Virus record (IMG/VR): IMGVR_UViG_3300027901_000032
Location: 1 to 25,175 of that record
Length of the DNA: 25,175 nucleotides
Direction: 5' to 3' (one strand)
DNA from: a virus
This document shows, one piece after another, positions 1 through 8,656 of the stretch. Each line of letters starts with the position of its first letter. The stretch's first letter is position 1. The notes below the pieces were generated by a model. That model had not been told where the DNA came from, ran no database searches, and saw nothing but the letters and a program-made list of their open reading frames with translations. A program made the position numbers and the translations under genes.

Positions 1-150
1 CATAACCACTTCCTACAACCGATAAACCACAAGGACCGGATCAGTGGAGTCAACCTACAGCGCTGTCTCCAGCTACTCTACAATCACGACCACCCGACCC
101 GTTCCCTTCGCCTATCTGTCCAACTTCACAAACTAATAGGAGTCAAATGA
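1..150 (+). CDS. C-terminal end of an unidentified protein (partial)
   Basis: Frame 1 is open from the window edge to a TGA at 148-150, giving 49 residues with no start visible. The stop overlaps the ATG of the next gene (ATGA at 147-150), the coupling used throughout this arm, which is the main reason to believe the frame is coding. The piece is rich in Leu, His and Arg (it contains HDHPTRSLRL). I do not recognise a family from so short a tail. Confidence 0.5.
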   Translation, partial: HNHFLQPINHKDRISGVNLQRCLQLLYNHDHPTRSLRLSVQLHKLIGVK

Positions 151-344
151 ACATCACAACTAACTATACTGTACGTCCTCGCGTAGCCGAACGTCACTTC
201 GTCGATGTACGGGTAACGTTTGACGACGACGAGTGCGCACTACTACTAAAAGCTCTAGGGTCCGATGACATCCTAGAGATTCGCGACCGTCTACGTCGGC
301 ATCTTCATAATCATTTTAGGAGGTTAATGAGTGGAGCGCTCTAA
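147..344 (+). CDS. Small hypothetical protein (65 aa)
   Basis: This is a 65-residue protein with no recognised family. The ATG at 147 follows AGGAG at 135-139. The middle is acidic (FDDDEC), and a basic, probably helical C-terminal half follows (IRDRLRRHLHNHFRR). No membrane segment, signal peptide or Cys cluster is visible. Its 3' end overlaps the GTG start of the folE-like gene by 14 bases, and the folE SD (AGGAGG) lies inside it, so the two are probably translationally coupled. A small regulatory or DNA-binding role is possible from its charge pattern, but nothing shows it. Confidence 0.6.
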   Translation: MNITTNYTVRPRVAERHFVDVRVTFDDDECALLLKALGSDDILEIRDRLRRHLHNHFRRLMSGAL

Positions 345-924
345 AATCGAAAAGGGAATAGAGATGGTCCTGGAGGGTTTACTGGGTCCTGAGTGGGAAA
401 GCGACCGCAACTACGAGGACACTCCAAGACGAGTAGCAGACTTCTACGAAGAGATGTTTGGGCCTCGTGGCTACGAGATAACAACGTTCCCCGACAAGTT
501 TCGCCAGATGATAGTTCTAGCCCACCATCAGGCTTGGACTTTGTGTCCCCACCACCTACTGCCCGTCCGGTTCGACGTATCGGCGGCCTACATTCCGGGC
601 GTCAAGTCGATCTACAAGGATGAGATCACCATCAGCGAGGAAAGTGAAGTGATAGGCCTCAGTAAATTGGTGAGGCTGGTGATGAACCACTTTACGGAGC
701 CGATACTCCAAGAGACGCTAACCGAAAGCGTCGCCGACGAGCTGATGAGAACTACAGACCCCCAACCTAAGGGCTCTGCTGTGTTGATATACGGAGACCA
801 TTCCTGTACACAGATTCGGGGACCCAAGACGTCAGGCTTCTTCGTTACAAGTGCAATGCGGGGGGCTTTCCTGGACAAGCCGGAGGTCAGGAACGAGTTT
901 CTAAACCTGGTTATGAGGAAATAA
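331..924 (+). CDS. folE: GTP cyclohydrolase I (FolE-like)
   Basis: GTP cyclohydrolase I converts GTP to 7,8-dihydroneopterin triphosphate, the first step toward both folate and 7-deazaguanines. The 197-residue protein keeps the family landmarks: CPHHLLPV at 72-79 (zinc ligand C72; H74 and H75), VIGLSKLVRL at 107-116, a LQETLTESVADEL segment matching the family's QERLT motif, and DHSCTQIRG at 156-164 with H157 and C159, the second zinc/catalytic pair. The usual CEHH is CPHH here, so one conserved Glu is Pro. The GTG start at 331 sits 7 bases after AGGAGG (318-323). A DpdA-like and a QueD gene lie 5-6 kb downstream on the same strand, so its likely job is feeding 7-deazaguanine DNA modification rather than folate. 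The gene ends directly at the AT-rich cassette (TAA then ATG at 925). Confidence 0.93.
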   Translation: MERSKIEKGIEMVLEGLLGPEWESDRNYEDTPRRVADFYEEMFGPRGYEITTFPDKFRQMIVLAHHQAWTLCPHHLLPVRFDVSAAYIPGVKSIYKDEITISEESEVIGLSKLVRLVMNHFTEPILQETLTESVADELMRTTDPQPKGSAVLIYGDHSCTQIRGPKTSGFFVTSAMRGAFLDKPEVRNEFLNLVMRK

Positions 925-2301
925 ATGGATAAAAAAGAGGTTATTAGACTACTCTATGATCTCAATAAGACTATCAACGACTGTAATATTAGGTATTGGG
1001 AGAAGAGCGAAAAAATTCAGGAGTTATCACAGGACAGACCAGATGTACTCTCTATGGTAAAGGAAGCCTATCGGACATTCTCAAAAGGTGATCCCAATGG
1101 TGCAAAACGGCAACACCTTGCCACCGTCAAATACATCGAGAGTTACAATACCCCCCCTCCGCCTCCGCCACCGCCTGAAACCGAACCACTAAAACTATTC
1201 CACTTGGACTCCGCAGGTATGCTCATGGATATCCTAGAACACGGATGGGAAGAAAGGTATGAGGATGAAGCATTTGAACGGATTGAGGCTTACCTACAGA
1301 AAGTGCTAAGCTATGCGCACCCTACGGCACTCAGCTTTTTCTCTGTGATACACAGCGAGAGACCAGAGCACAGCCACCTAAACTTCAAGACACCCTGGAT
1401 TGTTGATGTTGAAGAGGATAGATTTGATTTCACAGTCTGGAATGAAAGGTATTGGGAATTATACATAAGGTTCTTACAGCTTCTGGGGAGACTCAAGATA
1501 CAGGCTATGCCACAGGCGTTCATGCGTGAATATTACAATGCCTTCTTTAAGAGAGAGAATAATATACATGGGATAGATGGAATTTTAGACCCTAATGCTC
1601 TGTGGGTAGCAAAGAGATACGTAGGCAGGTTAATCCAGGGACAGTTGGGAACATTGCTAAGCCCGAACATAATCTTTGCAAACGAAATAGCTCATGGTGG
1701 GAAAGATGACATATACCATGCGATAGCGAACTGGCATAAATATTTGTGGGAACACCTGAGAGATCAGAAGGGCATCCCGTTGACAAGCATCTGGGCTGAT
1801 ACCTCACACTCTGAGGCTACGAGAGCGCAGTTGGTGTACCACGGCAAGGGCGATGCTTACTGTCCCAAGTGTGGGAAATATAAGTGGGATAACATACAGG
1901 AATACGGAAGGGATTGCAGGGCTATAAAGCACAGCATCGGCATTATAGATGACCTTGAACGTGGCGATGTGAGTTTTAAGACATGGAAGGGTAGTGCAAA
2001 TTGGGGTGGTAAAGGAAGTGAAGACGGGTCTCATAATCCAGATGCAAGGATTATTCCGTTACCTTCGATGAAATGGAGAGTGGCTAATCCCGATCAGTTA
2101 AGAACCATGCTGATATACGTCTGGACAGAGTGCAAGGAAGCCAAGAAGCGTAAGGAATACACGTGGGGCATGTTCTTCAATGGACAGCATAGCTTGGTGA
2201 ACGGTAAGATAAAGTCGTATTTTACCGATGATTTACCTGCTGTTTATTGGGAACGACTCCATGTTGTAGGTGAAATACATAGTGAAATTTTTAAAGAGTG
2301 A
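925..2301 (+). CDS. 458-aa cassette protein, possibly a TIM-barrel glycoside-hydrolase-like enzyme
   Basis: I do not recognise this protein with certainty. Three parts are visible: a charged helical N-terminus (1-75), a run of eight prolines (77-84) acting as a linker, and a domain of about 370 residues. The domain opens with LKLFHLDSAG (89-98). It has WNERYWELYIRFL (172-184) and NIIFANEIAHGG (248-259), whose Asn-Glu pair N253-E254 is placed like the acid/base NE of clan GH-A glycoside hydrolases. It also has a CPKCG zinc-ribbon-like knuckle (C313, C316) near an EYGRDC segment, and HSIGIIDDL. The fold and enzyme class are inferred by eye. The ATG directly follows the folE stop. Codons are much AT-richer than in the flanking genes (23 G+C of 60 at 1561-1620 against 29 of 60 at 661-720), which suggests transfer. 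Confidence 0.75.
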   Translation: MDKKEVIRLLYDLNKTINDCNIRYWEKSEKIQELSQDRPDVLSMVKEAYRTFSKGDPNGAKRQHLATVKYIESYNTPPPPPPPPETEPLKLFHLDSAGMLMDILEHGWEERYEDEAFERIEAYLQKVLSYAHPTALSFFSVIHSERPEHSHLNFKTPWIVDVEEDRFDFTVWNERYWELYIRFLQLLGRLKIQAMPQAFMREYYNAFFKRENNIHGIDGILDPNALWVAKRYVGRLIQGQLGTLLSPNIIFANEIAHGGKDDIYHAIANWHKYLWEHLRDQKGIPLTSIWADTSHSEATRAQLVYHGKGDAYCPKCGKYKWDNIQEYGRDCRAIKHSIGIIDDLERGDVSFKTWKGSANWGGKGSEDGSHNPDARIIPLPSMKWRVANPDQLRTMLIYVWTECKEAKKRKEYTWGMFFNGQHSLVNGKIKSYFTDDLPAVYWERLHVVGEIHSEIFKE

Positions 2302-2331
2302 CATCATAACTACTCTCAACGGAGGCGTGAG

Positions 2332-2559
2332 GTGAACAAAGCAGACAAACGAGACTTCGATGCACACTATGAAGATAAAAGGGATTGGTGTGAAATACCC
2401 GATGAAGCCAAACGTATCTGTAATAATTGCAAATATTTCGAGCCAGAGGTGCATTATTCAGGTGGGGAAAAAGGATGGTGTTTTTTAGCAGGGGAAATAT
2501 TAGGTATTGATGTTGAGTGGGATGATACCTGCGAAGATTGGAGGGACAAAAATGACTAA
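2332..2559 (+). CDS. Small Cys-rich protein (75 aa)
   Basis: A GTG start at 2332 follows GGAGG (2321-2325). The acidic 75-residue protein carries CNNCKYF, a later GWCFLAGE and then DTCEDW near the C-terminus: CxxC plus two single Cys, with another Cys near residue 20. This C-x2-C-x-(Y)F...G-x-C...C spacing is common in small uncharacterised phage and environmental proteins and could bind zinc or an iron-sulfur cluster. It lies in the AT-rich cassette. Its stop overlaps the next gene's ATG, so the small Cys proteins form one operon. Function unknown. Confidence 0.65.
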   Translation: MNKADKRDFDAHYEDKRDWCEIPDEAKRICNNCKYFEPEVHYSGGEKGWCFLAGEILGIDVEWDDTCEDWRDKND

Positions 2560-2725
2560 ACCTACCACCCCCGAATGGGTAAGTGATTGCTGTGGGGCTG
2601 AGGCAGTACGTCTGTTTAGCGAGAGATATGCGAAATGGATATATGTCTGCAAAAAATGCGTAAGAGATTGCACCCCCGTAGAATCGGGGAGAAGCAGGAA
2701 GAAAGGAGAATCCGATGAAATTTGA
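2552..2725 (+). CDS. Small zinc-ribbon-like protein (57 aa)
   Basis: The start is placed at the ATG at 2552, which overlaps the previous stop and follows GGAGGGA at 2540-2546. An upstream in-frame ATG at 2507 has no such site. The 57 residues contain SDCCGAEAV and, about 20 residues later, CKKCVRDC: a CC...CxxC zinc-ribbon pattern typical of tiny phage proteins. The C-terminus is basic and Ser-rich (SGRSRKKGE). It belongs to the AT-rich cassette and is likely translated with its neighbours. No specific function can be given. Confidence 0.6.
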   Translation: MTKPTTPEWVSDCCGAEAVRLFSERYAKWIYVCKKCVRDCTPVESGRSRKKGESDEI

Positions 2726-2737
2726 TGGAGGTGTGAG

Positions 2738-3025
2738 ATGACCATAACAAGTTCGGGTGCTATATGTGATGTATGTGGGAAATATATTTTACCCCTAGAT
2801 CCAGAAGAAAGGGTAAATTTATTTTCAATTAAGGGCATTGATAGAACACTTCATTGTGACAACGCCTGTAAAAAAATATTAATTGATGCTGATAAGGACT
2901 GGAAAAAACTTCCTAGTGGCCCATTAAGAAAAGCATTTGAAGAACAAGAAGCCAATAAGGAGCATCGTGGAGGAATGATTGAAAAGCAAAGTATGTCAAG
3001 GGTGTCCTTTAGCGGACGTCGGTGA
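2738..3025 (+). CDS. Small Cys-containing protein (95 aa)
   Basis: The ATG at 2738 follows GGAGGTGTG at 2725-2733. The N-terminal half has CDVCGKYIL and, after about 30 residues, HCDNACKKIL, a CxxC...CxxxC arrangement suggestive of a zinc-binding fold. The C-terminal half is a charged helix (WKKLPSGPLRKAFEEQ). It overlaps the start of the polymerase gene by 47 bases in another frame. The last 15 or so residues may therefore be accidental, produced where the cassette was joined to the original phage sequence. It is the last gene of the AT-rich cassette. Confidence 0.55.
   Translation: MTITSSGAICDVCGKYILPLDPEERVNLFSIKGIDRTLHCDNACKKILIDADKDWKKLPSGPLRKAFEEQEANKEHRGGMIEKQSMSRVSFSGRR
2969..2974 (+). 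promoter_or_regulatory. Shine-Dalgarno deciding the TTG start of the polymerase
   Basis: GGAGGA lies 4 bases before the TTG at 2979. No ATG or GTG precedes the first cysteine pair of the UDG domain in this frame with a comparable site. Confidence 0.6.
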
Positions 3026-5174
3026 GGGGTACTGTTATGGAGAAGGCCCTGAAGAAGCAACTGTACTCCTCCTTGGGGAAGCGTTGGGTGCTGAGGAAGC
3101 CAGGCAGGCGCGTCCGTTCGTGGGTGGAGCCGGACGCGTTCTTAACATGCTTCTCGGGAAGGCTGGTGTTAAAAGATCTAGGCTCTACGTCACCAACGTG
3201 GTACGTTGTCGCCCACCAGGCAACCGAACACCTACTGAGAAGGAGATCCGCGAGTGTGGGCAGCGACATAACCTACATAGCTTACTCACCAAGTTCAATC
3301 TGGTTGTACCTATGGGAAACGTCGCTCTCTATGCGGTCGCGGGTGAGACGCATATCACTCGTTGGCGCGGGTCTGTCTTCCAAAAAACGTATGGAGATAA
3401 GAGAGTCAAGGTCCTTCCAACGCTTCATCCAGCGGCTGTTATGCGGCAACAGGAGTTCATCCCAGCCGTCGTCCACGACTTCTCTAAAATCAACCAAGAA
3501 GGGTGGACCGACGAATACCTAGAACCAAAACAGGACTACGAACTACATGCGTACACAGGACACCTTTTACCTATGGCTCAGCGCCGTGAGTTTGCGTTTG
3601 ACGTGGAAACGCGCTCCTTGGAACCGTATCGTGGTTCTGTTACGCTGCTTGGTTTGTCGTGTGAGGCAGGCAAGGCGGTAGTACTAGATGACCTGGTAGC
3701 ATCGCAGACACAACTAGAAGCGCTGTTCGCCAGCCACCGACTGAAGATAGGGCATAACGTCGCTTTCGATATGGCTCACATGGAGTCGAATGGGTTTCCT
3801 GTTTCGCCTCCCTGGTATGACACTATGATAGCTCACCACCTACTGCTCAGTGACACGCCTAAAGATCTGGGGTTCGTAGCATCGTTGTACACCAGAATCC
3901 CGTATTGGAAACACCTTATGAAACAAGACCTACGGCTATACAACGCTACCGACGCCGACGCGACATACCGTATCTACGAGGCTACCGCTCCGGAACTAGA
4001 AGCTAAGGGGCTGAAGCCGGTGTTCGACACCTCGATGGCCTTGATACCGATCTTTAGTAGGATGACTCAACGTGGTGTAAGGGTGGACATGAAGCTCCAA
4101 AAGAAGTGGAGAGTTGGGCTGGAGAAGAAGATAGAACAACTGGACACAGCCCTGAAGAGGGGTCTCGACGACCAGTTGTTTAACTGGAGGTCACACAAAC
4201 AACTGGTTAAGCTGCTCTACATTAAACTAGGGCTGCCTCGCCAGTATTCGAAATATGGAAAGTCGTTAACCGCCAACGAAGAAGCATTAACGGAACTCCA
4301 CAAACTTACAGGGAGTAAGATTGTCGAAGCACTACTGAAACTACGGAAACTAAGTAAGCTAAGTAGCACATACTTCGCGAGCGAACGCCCCAGGGTACAT
4401 AGTGAGTACCTATTGCACGGCACAGCAACGGGTCGACTATCTTCACGAAACCCCAATTTACAAAACGTCCCTAAGGGGCCCGCTCGCGAGATATACCTAC
4501 CGGAGGAGGGTCATGTATTTATATCAGCAGATTACAATCAGATCGAGCTGCGTATTGCTGCCCTGCTGGCTGAAGAGAAAGAACTACTGGCTGCTTTTGG
4601 GCGGGGAGAGGACATCCACCGTACGGTTGCTAGTACGGTGTACAAAGTACCACAGGCAGCTGTTACCGACCTCCAGCGGTTTAGAGCGAAGTTCATCGTC
4701 TATGGACTCGGCTACGGACGAGGTGCTCGTTCGCTTGCTAAGGCATACGGGATGACTGTAGCCGAGGCCGAGAGGTTTATATACGAATATTTTAATGCGT
4801 TTGGACGGATCAAGTTATGGCGTGAGGATCTAGTAGAAGAGGTTCGTAAAACGGGTTACTTAGCTAACCCCTTCGGACGGCGTCGCTATTTCTTTGGTCC
4901 ATCTATAATACCAAAGGTCTATAACTTCCCACCGCAAAGTACTGCTGCTGACGTTATTCTACGCGCTATGGTGAAAATAGACGAGCAGTTACCTAAGGGT
5001 AGTTGGTTGGCAATCCAAGTTCATGATGAGGTGGTTGTTCAGGCGCCTGAGGACAACGTACGACAGGTAGGAGAGTGTCTACGGGACGTCATGCAGGCTC
5101 CGGTTCCTGAACTAGGAGGGTATCAGTTCCCAGTAGATGTAAAGGTGGGGAAGACCTGGAGGGAGGTTGAATGA
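2979..5174 (+). CDS. Uracil-DNA glycosylase-like / family A DNA polymerase fusion
   Basis: This is the probable replicative polymerase (731 aa). Residues 1-175 are a family 4-like uracil-DNA glycosylase domain: C6, C9, C77 and C93 match the four 4Fe-4S ligands, GEALGAEEARQARPFVG (33-49) is motif 1, and LHPAA (149-153) is the His motif. Residues 200-345 form a 3'-5' exonuclease: FDVET with D208 and E210, NVAFD with D264, and YNATDAD near 321-327. Residues 350-731 are the family A polymerase: motif A SADYNQIELR (516-525, D518), motif B around R567, K571, Y575 and Y579, motif C VHDE (681-684). Y575 sits where E. coli Pol I has Phe762, and T7 polymerase also has Tyr there. Phage SPO1 polymerase likewise carries a UDG-like N-terminus. 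The TTG start leaves three residues before the first cluster motif. Whether the UDG domain is catalytic or structural is unknown. Confidence 0.95.
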   Translation: MKSKVCQGCPLADVGEGYCYGEGPEEATVLLLGEALGAEEARQARPFVGGAGRVLNMLLGKAGVKRSRLYVTNVVRCRPPGNRTPTEKEIRECGQRHNLHSLLTKFNLVVPMGNVALYAVAGETHITRWRGSVFQKTYGDKRVKVLPTLHPAAVMRQQEFIPAVVHDFSKINQEGWTDEYLEPKQDYELHAYTGHLLPMAQRREFAFDVETRSLEPYRGSVTLLGLSCEAGKAVVLDDLVASQTQLEALFASHRLKIGHNVAFDMAHMESNGFPVSPPWYDTMIAHHLLLSDTPKDLGFVASLYTRIPYWKHLMKQDLRLYNATDADATYRIYEATAPELEAKGLKPVFDTSMALIPIFSRMTQRGVRVDMKLQKKWRVGLEKKIEQLDTALKRGLDDQLFNWRSHKQLVKLLYIKLGLPRQYSKYGKSLTANEEALTELHKLTGSKIVEALLKLRKLSKLSSTYFASERPRVHSEYLLHGTATGRLSSRNPNLQNVPKGPAREIYLPEEGHVFISADYNQIELRIAALLAEEKELLAAFGRGEDIHRTVASTVYKVPQAAVTDLQRFRAKFIVYGLGYGRGARSLAKAYGMTVAEAERFIYEYFNAFGRIKLWREDLVEEVRKTGYLANPFGRRRYFFGPSIIPKVYNFPPQSTAADVILRAMVKIDEQLPKGSWLAIQVHDEVVVQAPEDNVRQVGECLRDVMQAPVPELGGYQFPVDVKVGKTWREVE

Positions 5175-5590
5175 GCCTATTCGATGCGTTATCCGGTGGG
5201 GCCTCACAATGGCCTCCTTACTACTTAACTGGGGGATACGGACGTCCACCATGGCAAGACCAATTGTATGGTATGATGGCCAGCCAACAAGCCGCAGCTA
5301 TTCAAAGCCCGGTCGGCTGCCTAGAATGGGCGCGTGGCGAGGAACCCCACTACATTAAACAAAAGGAGGATAAGTTGGACGTGAAAATTTCTGTCCGCAA
5401 GATCGATGATCACTACCTAGCCGAAGCTGGGTGTGTGAAGTTCATCGCGCATGACAAGAAAGAGTTCAAGAAAAAGGCATTCCAACTTCTGGAGAAGTAC
5501 TTGGACACCCTGATGAGCGTACAGCCTCAAGACCCACGAGACCTGTCCAGGGAGCCCGCAGTACCTCCAGATGAGCAGGAGCGCGGATGA
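5171..5590 (+). CDS. Hypothetical protein (139 aa), possibly with an internal second start
   Basis: The ATG at 5171 overlaps the polymerase stop (ATGA). The first 65 residues are rich in Gly, Pro, Tyr and Gln and look disordered. The rest (from about residue 69) looks like a compact alpha/beta domain with charged segments (KKEFKKKAFQLLEKYLDTL) and a Pro-rich acidic tail. A strong SD (AAGGAGGA, 5363-5370) precedes an in-frame TTG at 5375, which would give a 71-residue product covering only the second half. Either the full protein, the short one, or both are made. A competing frame from 5167 to 5358 (TTG start) exists, so the first half is less certain. No family recognised. Confidence 0.6.
   Translation: MSLFDALSGGASQWPPYYLTGGYGRPPWQDQLYGMMASQQAAAIQSPVGCLEWARGEEPHYIKQKEDKLDVKISVRKIDDHYLAEAGCVKFIAHDKKEFKKKAFQLLEKYLDTLMSVQPQDPRDLSREPAVPPDEQERG
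5363..5370 (+). promoter_or_regulatory. Internal Shine-Dalgarno before an in-frame TTG (5375)
   Basis: AAGGAGGA followed after four bases by TTG, in frame with the 139-residue gene. It is as good as the sites used by true starts here, so it may mark a separate 71-residue gene. Confidence 0.5.
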
Positions 5591-5805
5591 ACAACAAACC
5601 GAAATTTAACTGGACAGCAGTACTCCTAGCACTGGCTATAGTTTTTCTGGTCTTCGACATCGCACGCCTTCGTTACCGTGTCGATCAGGTAGAAAAGGAA
5701 GTCGTAGAACTCAAAGAGGCGATCGTTCAGATTGAGGCAGCGACGGCTATAGCCGTGGAGGCAGTAGACCAGTACTACGATGCACTTGACAAACTCAACA
5801 ATTGA
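5587..5805 (+). CDS. Small membrane protein with coiled-coil tail (72 aa)
   Basis: The ATG at 5587 overlaps the previous stop (ATGA). After a short basic N-terminus (KPKF) there is one hydrophobic segment, residues 9-25 (WTAVLLALAIVFLVFDI). A heptad-like stretch follows (RVDQVEKEVVELKEAIVQI), and then an Ala-rich acidic helix. One membrane anchor plus a coiled coil is all that can be said. Basic residues on both sides of the segment make the topology unclear. It overlaps the start of another tiny membrane protein gene, and the two may act together at the membrane. Confidence 0.65.
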   Translation: MNNKPKFNWTAVLLALAIVFLVFDIARLRYRVDQVEKEVVELKEAIVQIEAATAIAVEAVDQYYDALDKLNN

Positions 5806-5881
5806 CGACATCTACGACGCCATTGAAGAGATAGCCCCTATACTATTAGGTATAGGTTGGCTACTGCTGTTTTTTGTGTAG
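5780..5881 (+). CDS. Very small membrane protein (33 aa)
   Basis: The ATG at 5780 overlaps the end of the preceding gene by 26 bases, and the frame closes at TAG 5879-5881. The N-terminal half is polar and acidic (TIDDIYDAIEEIAP) and the C-terminal half is a hydrophobic segment (ILLGIGWLLLFFV), giving a C-tail anchor with an acidic face. The stop overlaps the SD of the dpdA-like gene, which fits an operon member. Codon choice (CTA, ATA, GAC) resembles the neighbours. No clear SD was seen at its start, so it may depend on coupling. Function unknown. Confidence 0.45.
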   Translation: MHLTNSTIDDIYDAIEEIAPILLGIGWLLLFFV

Positions 5882-5885
5882 GAGG
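5880..5885 (+). promoter_or_regulatory. Shine-Dalgarno deciding the TTG start of the dpdA-like gene
   Basis: AGGAGG ends 4 bases before the TTG at 5890. A longer in-frame reading from the TTG at 5857 has no SD and would add 11 residues unlike the family, so 5890 is preferred. Confidence 0.6.
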
Positions 5886-5889
5886 AAGA

Positions 5890-6636
5890 TTGGAACTTAG
5901 CTTCGAAATACCGATACCACACCTTCATGAGTTTCTTCCGTTATCCGACTTCGGTTTCGGGCTGGCTCACCTGATGCTCGACAAGGAATACAAGCACGCA
6001 GGAACATACCACACCATAATGCAGGGCTGCCTACTAGACAACAGCATGTACGAGCTACAGGACGAGCCACTTACCAACGAACAACTGATAGCGGCAGCCG
6101 AGGTCTGTAGTCCGGTAGCAGTTATCGCTCCCGACTGGATGGATAAGAAGGGTCCGTCCACCGACGCTGCTTACACCTTAATAGAGGCAGTACACCACCT
6201 CAACATGAAAGCCGTTACGTTCCTAGGAGACAGAGAGGTTCCTATGATCTTGTGGACGGTTGGAGGGGTAGTTCAGGGCAAAGATCTCCAGGAACGAGTT
6301 CAGTGCTTTCACGACCTACAGAAACTGGGTTGTAGACCGATCTGCTTTCCGTTTAGGACGCCTCGACACGAAACCATCGGGCAACTACTCCTACTACAGG
6401 CGTTCAGGGAAGAGGAGTGGTACCACCTGCTCGGACTACAAGATCTTACGGAACTGACCTGGAAACTACCTGGACGCTGGTCAGTCGACACAGCTAAACC
6501 CTTCAAGGGGAAGAGGTTGGATAAGGAGAAGAGTATTCGGGGACTGGGAAGGCTGCGTATCCACGAAGAGCTGTCGGAGGAAGCGAGACGGATAGCGGCT
6601 TGGAATATCGCATATCTAACAAGGCTAGCAAGATAA
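5890..6636 (+). CDS. TGT-superfamily protein, DpdA-like DNA 7-deazaguanine inserter
   Basis: This 248-residue protein resembles tRNA-guanine transglycosylases (TGT) and their DNA-acting relatives (DpdA), which swap guanine in DNA for preQ0 or a derivative. Visible landmarks are LLDNSMYEL (48-56, D50), VIAPDWMD (78-85, D82), a TGT-like GGVVQGKDLQERVQC segment (125-139), HLLGL (179-183) and RWSVDTAKPF (196-205, D200). D50 and D200 are candidates for the two catalytic Asp of the superfamily. It is shorter than bacterial TGT (about 370 aa), as phage DpdA-type proteins often are, and lacks the classical CxCxxC zinc site. QueD follows 13 bases downstream and FolE lies upstream, making DNA modification more likely than tRNA modification. 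The exact DpdA subfamily cannot be told by eye. Confidence 0.8.
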   Translation: MELSFEIPIPHLHEFLPLSDFGFGLAHLMLDKEYKHAGTYHTIMQGCLLDNSMYELQDEPLTNEQLIAAAEVCSPVAVIAPDWMDKKGPSTDAAYTLIEAVHHLNMKAVTFLGDREVPMILWTVGGVVQGKDLQERVQCFHDLQKLGCRPICFPFRTPRHETIGQLLLLQAFREEEWYHLLGLQDLTELTWKLPGRWSVDTAKPFKGKRLDKEKSIRGLGRLRIHEELSEEARRIAAWNIAYLTRLAR

Positions 6637-6649
6637 GAAAGGAGAAGCA

Positions 6650-7006
6650 ATGAACGTAACAGTATGGCGGCGGTGCACATTCGACGCCGCACACCAACTA
6701 TCAATGCACAATGGGGTGTGTAGTCGTCTCCACGGACACACATACACTGTAGAGGTCGGTGTAGTGTGTCCTATAGACGAGACTACCGGGATGGGGATAG
6801 ACCTCATCGAGTTGAAGACATTCTTATACCAGGAGGTCATCGCGCGGTTCGACCACCGCTATCTTAATGACCATATCGCTGGACAACCAACTGCAGAACT
6901 AATAGCGTGTACCGTACTCGACGCCGCTAACAGGGTGTTTCCAGGACATCAGACTCTAGTACGGATATACGAAAGTCCTGACGGTTGGGTGGAGGTATCA
7001 CGATGA
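6650..7006 (+). CDS. queD: 6-carboxy-5,6,7,8-tetrahydropterin synthase (QueD)
   Basis: QueD turns the FolE product dihydroneopterin triphosphate into 6-carboxytetrahydropterin, the second step to preQ0. The 118 residues are full length for the family. FDAAHQL (11-17) supplies zinc ligand H15, and RLHGHTY (26-32) supplies H28 and H30. C24 is the catalytic Cys, FDHRYLND (67-74) holds the catalytic Asp/His pair, and RIYESP (105-110) carries the substrate-binding Glu E108. The ATG at 6650 follows AAGGAG. It sits 13 bases after the dpdA-like gene, and its TGA overlaps the next gene's ATG at 7003, so it is central in the operon. PTPS-type activity for biopterin is the alternative, but the FolE and DpdA context points to deazaguanine synthesis. 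Confidence 0.92.
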   Translation: MNVTVWRRCTFDAAHQLSMHNGVCSRLHGHTYTVEVGVVCPIDETTGMGIDLIELKTFLYQEVIARFDHRYLNDHIAGQPTAELIACTVLDAANRVFPGHQTLVRIYESPDGWVEVSR

Positions 7007-7329
7007 CCCCAGAAAGAGAAAAATTTATGCGCGATCTTGGTAAAGCTGCTCGCGAGAAACGTGACGAGGTCATCACAGAGGTTCTGAAAGCAGACCCTAG
7101 GGTAGACCATCCACCCTACTATAACCAAGGGCAGATCGAGGTTATCGACTTCATCCGCGATCAGTTGACTAGGGAACGCTACGAGGGTTTCCTACAGGGC
7201 TGCGTTTTACAGTATATCTGTAGGTACCCCCACAAAGGAGAGGCCGAGACCGACCTTAAGAAAGCACGATTTTACCTAAACGAACTGATCCGCGTATATG
7301 GAAGACCAACAACTAGAGAAGGCTCTTGA
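7003..7329 (+). CDS. DUF3310 family protein
   Basis: The start is the ATG at 7003, which overlaps the queD stop (ATGA) and follows GGAGG at 6991-6995. The GTG at 6985 has no site. The 108-residue protein ends in the DUF3310 pattern: PPYYNQGQIEVIDFI (residues 37-51), then FLQGCVLQYICRYPHKG and DLKKARFYLNELI. This family is widespread in phages beside replication and nucleotide genes. It is often labelled nucleotide kinase, but its biochemistry is not settled. The first 35 residues are charged and helical. It overlaps the next gene by 32 bases in another frame. Confidence 0.82.
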   Translation: MTPEREKFMRDLGKAAREKRDEVITEVLKADPRVDHPPYYNQGQIEVIDFIRDQLTRERYEGFLQGCVLQYICRYPHKGEAETDLKKARFYLNELIRVYGRPTTREGS

Positions 7330-8656
7330 GCTATTCAAAGACTTCCTACGCGGACTCGAGGGGGCGTCACGCGAGTCGGAAACCTACCGAAAAGCACGGA
7401 AGTTTATAGAAGAGTTCCCGAGACCATTCACTACTGTCGAACGTCAAGAACTATCCGCCTTGATGAGAAAGGCGTTCGGGCTACCAAAGGACAGCGACCC
7501 CTCAACAGAACCGTTCGCAAGTTTGATTCCGAAAGTCGGATGGTTACACGACTACTACAAATACACACTGCGGAGTGAGCCGCCCGCAGTGTTTCATTTT
7601 ATGTCAGCGTTGACAGTACTAGGAGCAACGCTGGGAAGGAGTGTGTACTTTGACAAAGGGTTTTACAGAGTATATCCAAACATTGCTACAGTGCTTATTG
7701 CTCCGACGGGGCGCTGCCGAAAGACTAGCGCGACGAACGTATCTTTACAGCTTGCTAGGGCTGTCGGGGTTAATGTCCTTAGCGAGCGCCTTACCCCTGA
7801 AGCTCTCGTCGAAGGCCTTGGAGGAAGTGAACAAGCAACTGGATTGGTTTACGCACCAGAACTCGCAGTCTTCCTCGGACGACAAAAGTACCTCGAAGGT
7901 ATGGTACCACTACTAACGTCGCTATTTGACTCTCCTGACGTCTGGAAGTCGTCTACCATAGGACGTGGTGATTTATGCCTGTCGAGAGTAGCGGTGTGTA
8001 TGTTAGCTGCCAGTACTGTGGAGTGGTTCGTGGAGGCCCTACCACGAGAGGCTTTCTCGGGCGGCTTCATGTCCCGTATCCTTTTTGTAGTACAAGAGGA
8101 TACCGCGCGGGAGTTCGCTCTACCCGAACGTGGCGAGGGACATGTGTGGGAAGGCCTCCGTGAACAACTCCAGGAGATCGGGCAGCTCAGTGGAGAGGTG
8201 TTCCTAGAACGTGACGCTGAACTGTGGTATAAACAATGGTATGCCACTCACCACAGAACTCCTGTCTTCGATGCTAAGTTTGCGGGGTACCACGAGCGGA
8301 AGCCCGACCATATGTTACGAATCGCTTATCTGTTACGAATCGCGAATACCAGATCGCTACGAATCCAGAAGGAGGACCTAGACCACGCTCTCGGGATTCT
8401 AGACTGGATGGAGGTACTGTTACCTGAGGTGTTTGACATGGTTGCGCATACAGCCGTCGGTGAAACACACCGCCGTATCGTACGACAGTTAAAGGCAGCT
8501 GGAGGGCGCATCGCACACAGTACACTCCTTCGGAAGAACCAATACTACATGACCGCCCGTGCGTTCGCTGAGGCTATGATCACGCTAAAGGAAAGTGGGA
8601 CCGTAGACGAGGAGAGAACCGTTGGCGGGCGGTACTACACTCTACAGGAGAAATAA
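7298..8656 (+). CDS. DUF3987-like P-loop ATPase, putative replicative helicase
   Basis: The 452-residue protein resembles the DUF3987 ATPase/helicase-like proteins found in phage and plasmid replication modules. Seen here: a helical N-terminus, SEPPAVFHFMSALTVLGATLG (93-113, family-like), a Walker A variant APTGRCRKTSA (135-145, K142 and T143) and a Walker B-like LVYAPELAVFLG (183-194, E188). GGFMSRILFVV (255-265) may hold an arginine finger. A winged-helix-like C-terminus (about 400-450) follows. The P-loop is unusual in having RCRKT instead of GSGKT. The gene lies after the polymerase, consistent with a helicase role in phage replication. The ATG at 7298 lies inside the DUF3310 gene without a strong SD, so translation may be coupled. 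Confidence 0.7.
   Translation: MEDQQLEKALELFKDFLRGLEGASRESETYRKARKFIEEFPRPFTTVERQELSALMRKAFGLPKDSDPSTEPFASLIPKVGWLHDYYKYTLRSEPPAVFHFMSALTVLGATLGRSVYFDKGFYRVYPNIATVLIAPTGRCRKTSATNVSLQLARAVGVNVLSERLTPEALVEGLGGSEQATGLVYAPELAVFLGRQKYLEGMVPLLTSLFDSPDVWKSSTIGRGDLCLSRVAVCMLAASTVEWFVEALPREAFSGGFMSRILFVVQEDTAREFALPERGEGHVWEGLREQLQEIGQLSGEVFLERDAELWYKQWYATHHRTPVFDAKFAGYHERKPDHMLRIAYLLRIANTRSLRIQKEDLDHALGILDWMEVLLPEVFDMVAHTAVGETHRRIVRQLKAAGGRIAHSTLLRKNQYYMTARAFAEAMITLKESGTVDEERTVGGRYYTLQEK

Follow-up and report, generated by a model that had tools for sequence, protein, structure and literature searches.

A probable full preQ0-to-DNA pathway and its divergent short DpdA in a podovirus-like phage represented by an incomplete contig

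We suggest that the phage described here very probably encodes the whole preQ0-to-DNA route within its replication operon, and that the end of an incomplete contig hides the remainder of it. The stretch of DNA analysed, hereafter the window, is the whole of IMG/VR record IMGVR_UViG_3300027901_000032 (25,175 bp), classed as linear and without end repeats; it is an incomplete genome of a podovirus-like phage, covering ~25 of an inferred 42–45 kb. Its genes follow the order FolE, a 458-aa orphan, a fusion of UDG, exonuclease and PolA (UDG-PolA), DpdA, QueD, DUF3310 and helicase (Table 1). The original prediction that FolE, QueD and a TGT/DpdA-type protein are real genes, all on one strand amid replication genes, agrees with the Pfam matches and a predicted fold, and the same genes and fold support its 7-deazaguanine-to-DNA pathway and TGT/DpdA assignment; the order it gave was wrong, since it set FolE and QueD first and DpdA last, and DpdA precedes QueD. 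Such a pathway and its part in protecting DNA from restriction are established (PMC6884629), and the present system appears to be a divergent member of it, probably with the full preQ0-to-DNA route.

Table 1. Features of the window that bear on the proposed pathway
Feature	Position	Strand	Basis
queE 3' end, truncated by contig edge (final 49 codons plus stop)	1..150	+	HMM, BLASTP, alignment
folE, GTP cyclohydrolase I, 197 aa	331..924	+	Pfam PF01227 (GTP_cyclohydroI), E 8.4e-31
Orphan gene, 458 aa, between folE and polymerase	925-2301		No family or relative
Fusion of a family-4 UDG domain, in front, to a 3'-5' exonuclease and a family A DNA polymerase, 731 aa	2979..5174	+	Pfam UDG, DNA_pol_A_exo1, DNA_pol_A
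dpdA-like, short TGT-superfamily putative DNA guanine transglycosylase, 248 aa, TTG start	5890..6636	+	Fold, profiles, relatives
queD, 6-carboxytetrahydropterin synthase family, 118 aa	6650..7006	+	Pfam PF01242 (PTPS), E 4.3e-27
DUF3310 protein adjoining queD	6985..7329	+	Pfam PF11753, E 6.8e-19
Primase/helicase-like protein, 452 aa, adjoining pathway genes	7298..8656	+	phrog_14296, E 7.9e-38; 59-66% identity to four relatives

Searching with FolE recovered one related record, IMGVR_UViG_3300009034_000091 (L005/G001, 42.4 kb), and a two-sequence DpdA alignment recovered six more, while nearest-neighbour scans with a single DpdA or a single polymerase sequence found no relatives. The same DpdA alignment gave 0 relatives in a scan of bacterial genomes, and therefore no host is inferred. 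Four close relatives (G001–G004; 47–61% identity in DpdA, 52–61% in FolE and 46–57% in QueD) keep the gene order of the window, with QueE before FolE in all four. In G001, G003 and G004 this order is QueC, PD-(D/E)XK nuclease, AAA ATPase, small protein, QueE, FolE, UDG/PolA, DpdA, QueD and helicase, and G002 (15.8 kb), whose contig starts with the AAA gene, agrees from there on; QueD of G001 lies at the opposite end of its contig, as expected if that contig is circularly permuted. G001, G003 and G004 also carry a terminase, and none was found in the window by tblastn with the terminase of Podoviridae sp. ctLwi270 (MW202554.1, Manatee Spring); Pfam Terminase_6N had 0 matches in any record and is uninformative. 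Against NCBIfam, the FolE of the window matches FolE models at E 5e-33, below their cut-offs, and the closest model to its QueD is TIGR03367 QueD, at 82.5 bits just below the cut-off of 89.25.

The left edge of the window lies inside queE. Frame 1 is open from base 1 to a stop at 148–150, and its 49 residues, ending ...RLSVQLHKLIGVK, align with the C-terminus of the relatives' QueE. With an HMM made from the QueE of five relatives, the segment scored 41.5 bits (E 4.5e-12, hmmsearch), compared with 3.7 bits for the next window segment and 6.2 bits for the best of 20 shuffled windows, and BLASTP against the QueE of L005 gave 40% identity (E 9e-10). Since alignment, BLASTP and HMM all place the segment at the QueE C-terminus, QueE is present but cut by the contig end, its catalytic N-terminal part falling outside, and the absence of QueE claimed in the original prediction is not borne out. 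The truncated QueE could in principle belong instead to a gene damaged upstream. Both QueE and QueD were matched in 6/7 relatives, the seventh record being 4.1 kb long; the best matches of the relatives' QueE proteins are QueE models, yet below the cut-offs of those models.

A missing QueC, as originally noted, is true of the 25,175-bp fragment, which stops ~3–5 kb short of where relatives have the gene: QueC lies 3–5 kb farther upstream in the three close relatives reaching that far. It is above the Pfam cut-off in 5/5 records that reach the region (5/7 overall, the two without it being the 15.8 kb and 4.1 kb fragments), and two more distant records also have all five genes, FolE, QueD, QueE, QueC and DpdA. 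The claimed absence of QueE and QueC thus stems from truncation of the contig. As QueC is not in the window, we infer it for this phage from relatives whose DpdA is 47–61% identical, and it would be encoded just beyond the contig edge. No QueF was found above cut-off in the window or the relatives, and the weak matches, which fall inside FolE, were rejected as a QueF candidate.

That the phage has kept FolE, QueD, QueE and DpdA but lost QueC, and either inserts 7-carboxy-7-deazaguanine or takes the QueC product from its host, is improbable. Besides the lack of the gene in the fragment, this reading has a precedent in Mycobacterium phage Bipper, a member of the preQ0 group in which queC alone is missing (PMC6884629). 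However, the fragment ends before the QueC position is reached, and every relative that covers the region encodes QueC, three close ones in the same operon and order.

The longest ORF for the DpdA-like protein begins at 5857; the likely start is the TTG at 5890, in agreement with the original prediction, as GGAGG precedes it at 5881–5885 and the relatives begin there too. The ORF (5857–6636) has no Pfam, NCBIfam or PADLOC match and no meaningful PHROG match, and PDB searches by sequence returned only PPR/tektin entries, taken as chance matches. An AlphaFold2 model from a 7-sequence alignment reached a pLDDT of 85.6 and a pTM of 0.85, and the best 50 PDB matches of this model in Foldseek were all TGTs or 7ui4, the solved DNA preQ0 insertase DpdA (E 2.9e-07 to 1.1e-05, TM 0.49–0.62); among viral models, the highest TM-score (0.74) belonged to a protein of Cellulophaga phage phiST. 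Judged by its predicted fold, the protein is a member of the TGT superfamily, and a placement outside TGT/DpdA, which would have counted against the original reading, was not what the fold test gave. Among the invariant positions of ten short DpdAs are D61-N62, E66, P92-D93, G141, R170, H190, G193 and D211-T212 (numbering of the 5857 ORF). By motif, and not by superposition, we tentatively equate D61, D93 and D211 with D102, D156 and D280 of TGT, and they may represent its catalytic and base-binding positions.

Profile comparisons relate the protein to the one annotated as DpdA in Flavobacterium phage immuto (E 7.9e-20), to CPT_0056 of Campylobacter phage CP220 (E 1.3e-17 over 188 columns) and to a protein of Weizmannia phage Youna2 (E 3.4e-16), and reveal no homology to the DpdA of phage 9g, of the DpdA1 type (hhalign E 0.037 over 31 columns). 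In PHROGs, the 9g DpdA falls in phrog_887 and phrog_7068, and the relatives in phrog_19058 and phrog_20335, with L008, L013 and L014 matching phrog_19058. The original prediction left the subfamily to be compared, and by sequence the protein appears to group with the short phage DpdAs of the immuto and CP220 type, not with that of 9g. With this family (immuto, CP220 CPT_0056 and Youna2; phrog_19058/phrog_20335) it shares a length of 248–264 aa, the invariant pattern DN..E, PD, G, R, H..G, DT and profile E-values of 3e-16 to 8e-20; it differs from it in an identity of ~25% or less and in itself being below the threshold for both PHROGs. Immuto differs further in having QueF.

Campylobacter phages such as CP220 were placed among those without a recognised DpdA (PMC6884629), and the DNA of CP220 and CPt10 carries dADG (cited in PMC8306585). 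CPT_0056 of CP220 (L042:5995-6771) is annotated as hypothetical, yet is homologous to DpdA-like proteins of the type in the window; UKM63149.1 of Youna2 (L043:4956-5726), which likewise bears a hypothetical annotation, resembles a short DpdA and has QueC, QueD, QueE, FolE and PolA next to it. The Campylobacter-type enzyme was reportedly named DpdA3 later, by Cui et al. in 2023.

It is very improbable that the pathway serves tRNA queuosine or pterin metabolism and that the putative transglycosylase modifies tRNA or is some other TIM-barrel enzyme. Enzymes of the FolE and QueD families do take part in folate, pterin and tRNA-Q pathways as well, TGT works on tRNA, and in Foldseek TGT is a slightly better match than DpdA 7ui4. 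Against this, the protein has only 248 aa, compared with roughly 340–390 aa in TGT chains, its homologues include an annotated DNA guanine transglycosylase (immuto) and CPT_0056 from a phage with dADG in its DNA, and all pathway genes lie beside a DNA polymerase. Least tenable is the reading first proposed, of a split pathway without QueE and QueC that would parasitise host queuosine synthesis or make a different base: the window contains no complete copy of either gene, but its first 150 bases are the end of queE and relatives carry both genes, so dependence on host intermediates or the making of another base is unsupported and extremely improbable.

In the full preQ0-to-DNA route that we favour, FolE would convert GTP to dihydroneopterin triphosphate, QueD would make carboxytetrahydropterin, QueE would make 7-carboxy-7-deazaguanine and the predicted QueC would make the 7-amido and 7-cyano bases. 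The short DpdA-type transglycosylase would then put the deazaguanine base into phage DNA in place of guanine, which presumably blocks host restriction; DNA as the target and anti-restriction as the role are predictions. The inserted base is most likely preQ0 or its amide. Supporting this, dPreQ0 or dADG would be likelier than dPreQ1 or archaeosine because QueF is missing above cut-off and the QueC of L005, although above both Pfam and NCBIfam QueC cut-offs, has a plain length of 221 aa and carries no amidotransferase domain. This is similar to the preQ0-to-DNA system described earlier (PMC6884629) in the combination of FolE, QueD, QueE, QueC (inferred for the window contig) and a DpdA, with neither an amidotransferase nor QueF detected. 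It differs in that the DpdA is of another, shorter subfamily, outside the PHROGs that hold the 9g DpdA, and in that the genome is podovirus-like and the window genes are split around the UDG-PolA fusion.

The UDG domain of this fusion scores 144 bits with TIGR00758 UDG_fam4, above the cut-off of 125.3, and the fusion is a conserved neighbour between folE and dpdA in the relatives; a literature search found no evident description of it. It also occurs in ctLwi270, which has the same replication module of UDG/PolA (36% identity in the UDG part) and helicase in a similar layout, whereas tblastn detected no FolE, QueD or DpdA in the complete 44-kb genome of ctLwi270. Therefore, the fusion is not tied to the deazaguanine pathway, and the pathway can be seen as an optional cassette in a broader group. 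It is conceivable, if doubtful, that in this small podovirus-like phage the short DpdA, a relative of the CP220 protein, exchanges most or even all of the guanine for preQ0 or its amide, and that the UDG-PolA fusion is adapted to such a genome.

The 458-aa orphan matches no family, and searches of phages (best E 0.05), plasmids, viral contigs and the related records gave no convincing relative. It is absent from all of the latter, the same place in L008 being held by other small genes (4133-5177), and its single-sequence AlphaFold2 model was unusable (pLDDT 37.6). As a substitute for QueE or QueC it was rejected; the window has QueE and the relatives have QueC, which leaves nothing to be replaced. 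Two small ORFs of the pathway region in G002 (L008), at 2296-2886 and 4133-4519, are by eye putative homing-endonuclease genes.

We conclude that this case can be struck from the examples of split, host-dependent deazaguanine pathways, and that the edge of a contig can mimic gene loss. At the same time, the known system gains a podovirus-like lineage whose short DpdA is divergent. Because the DpdA of the window escapes Pfam, NCBIfam, PADLOC and PHROGs alike, counts of deazaguanine modification in such phages are probably too low.
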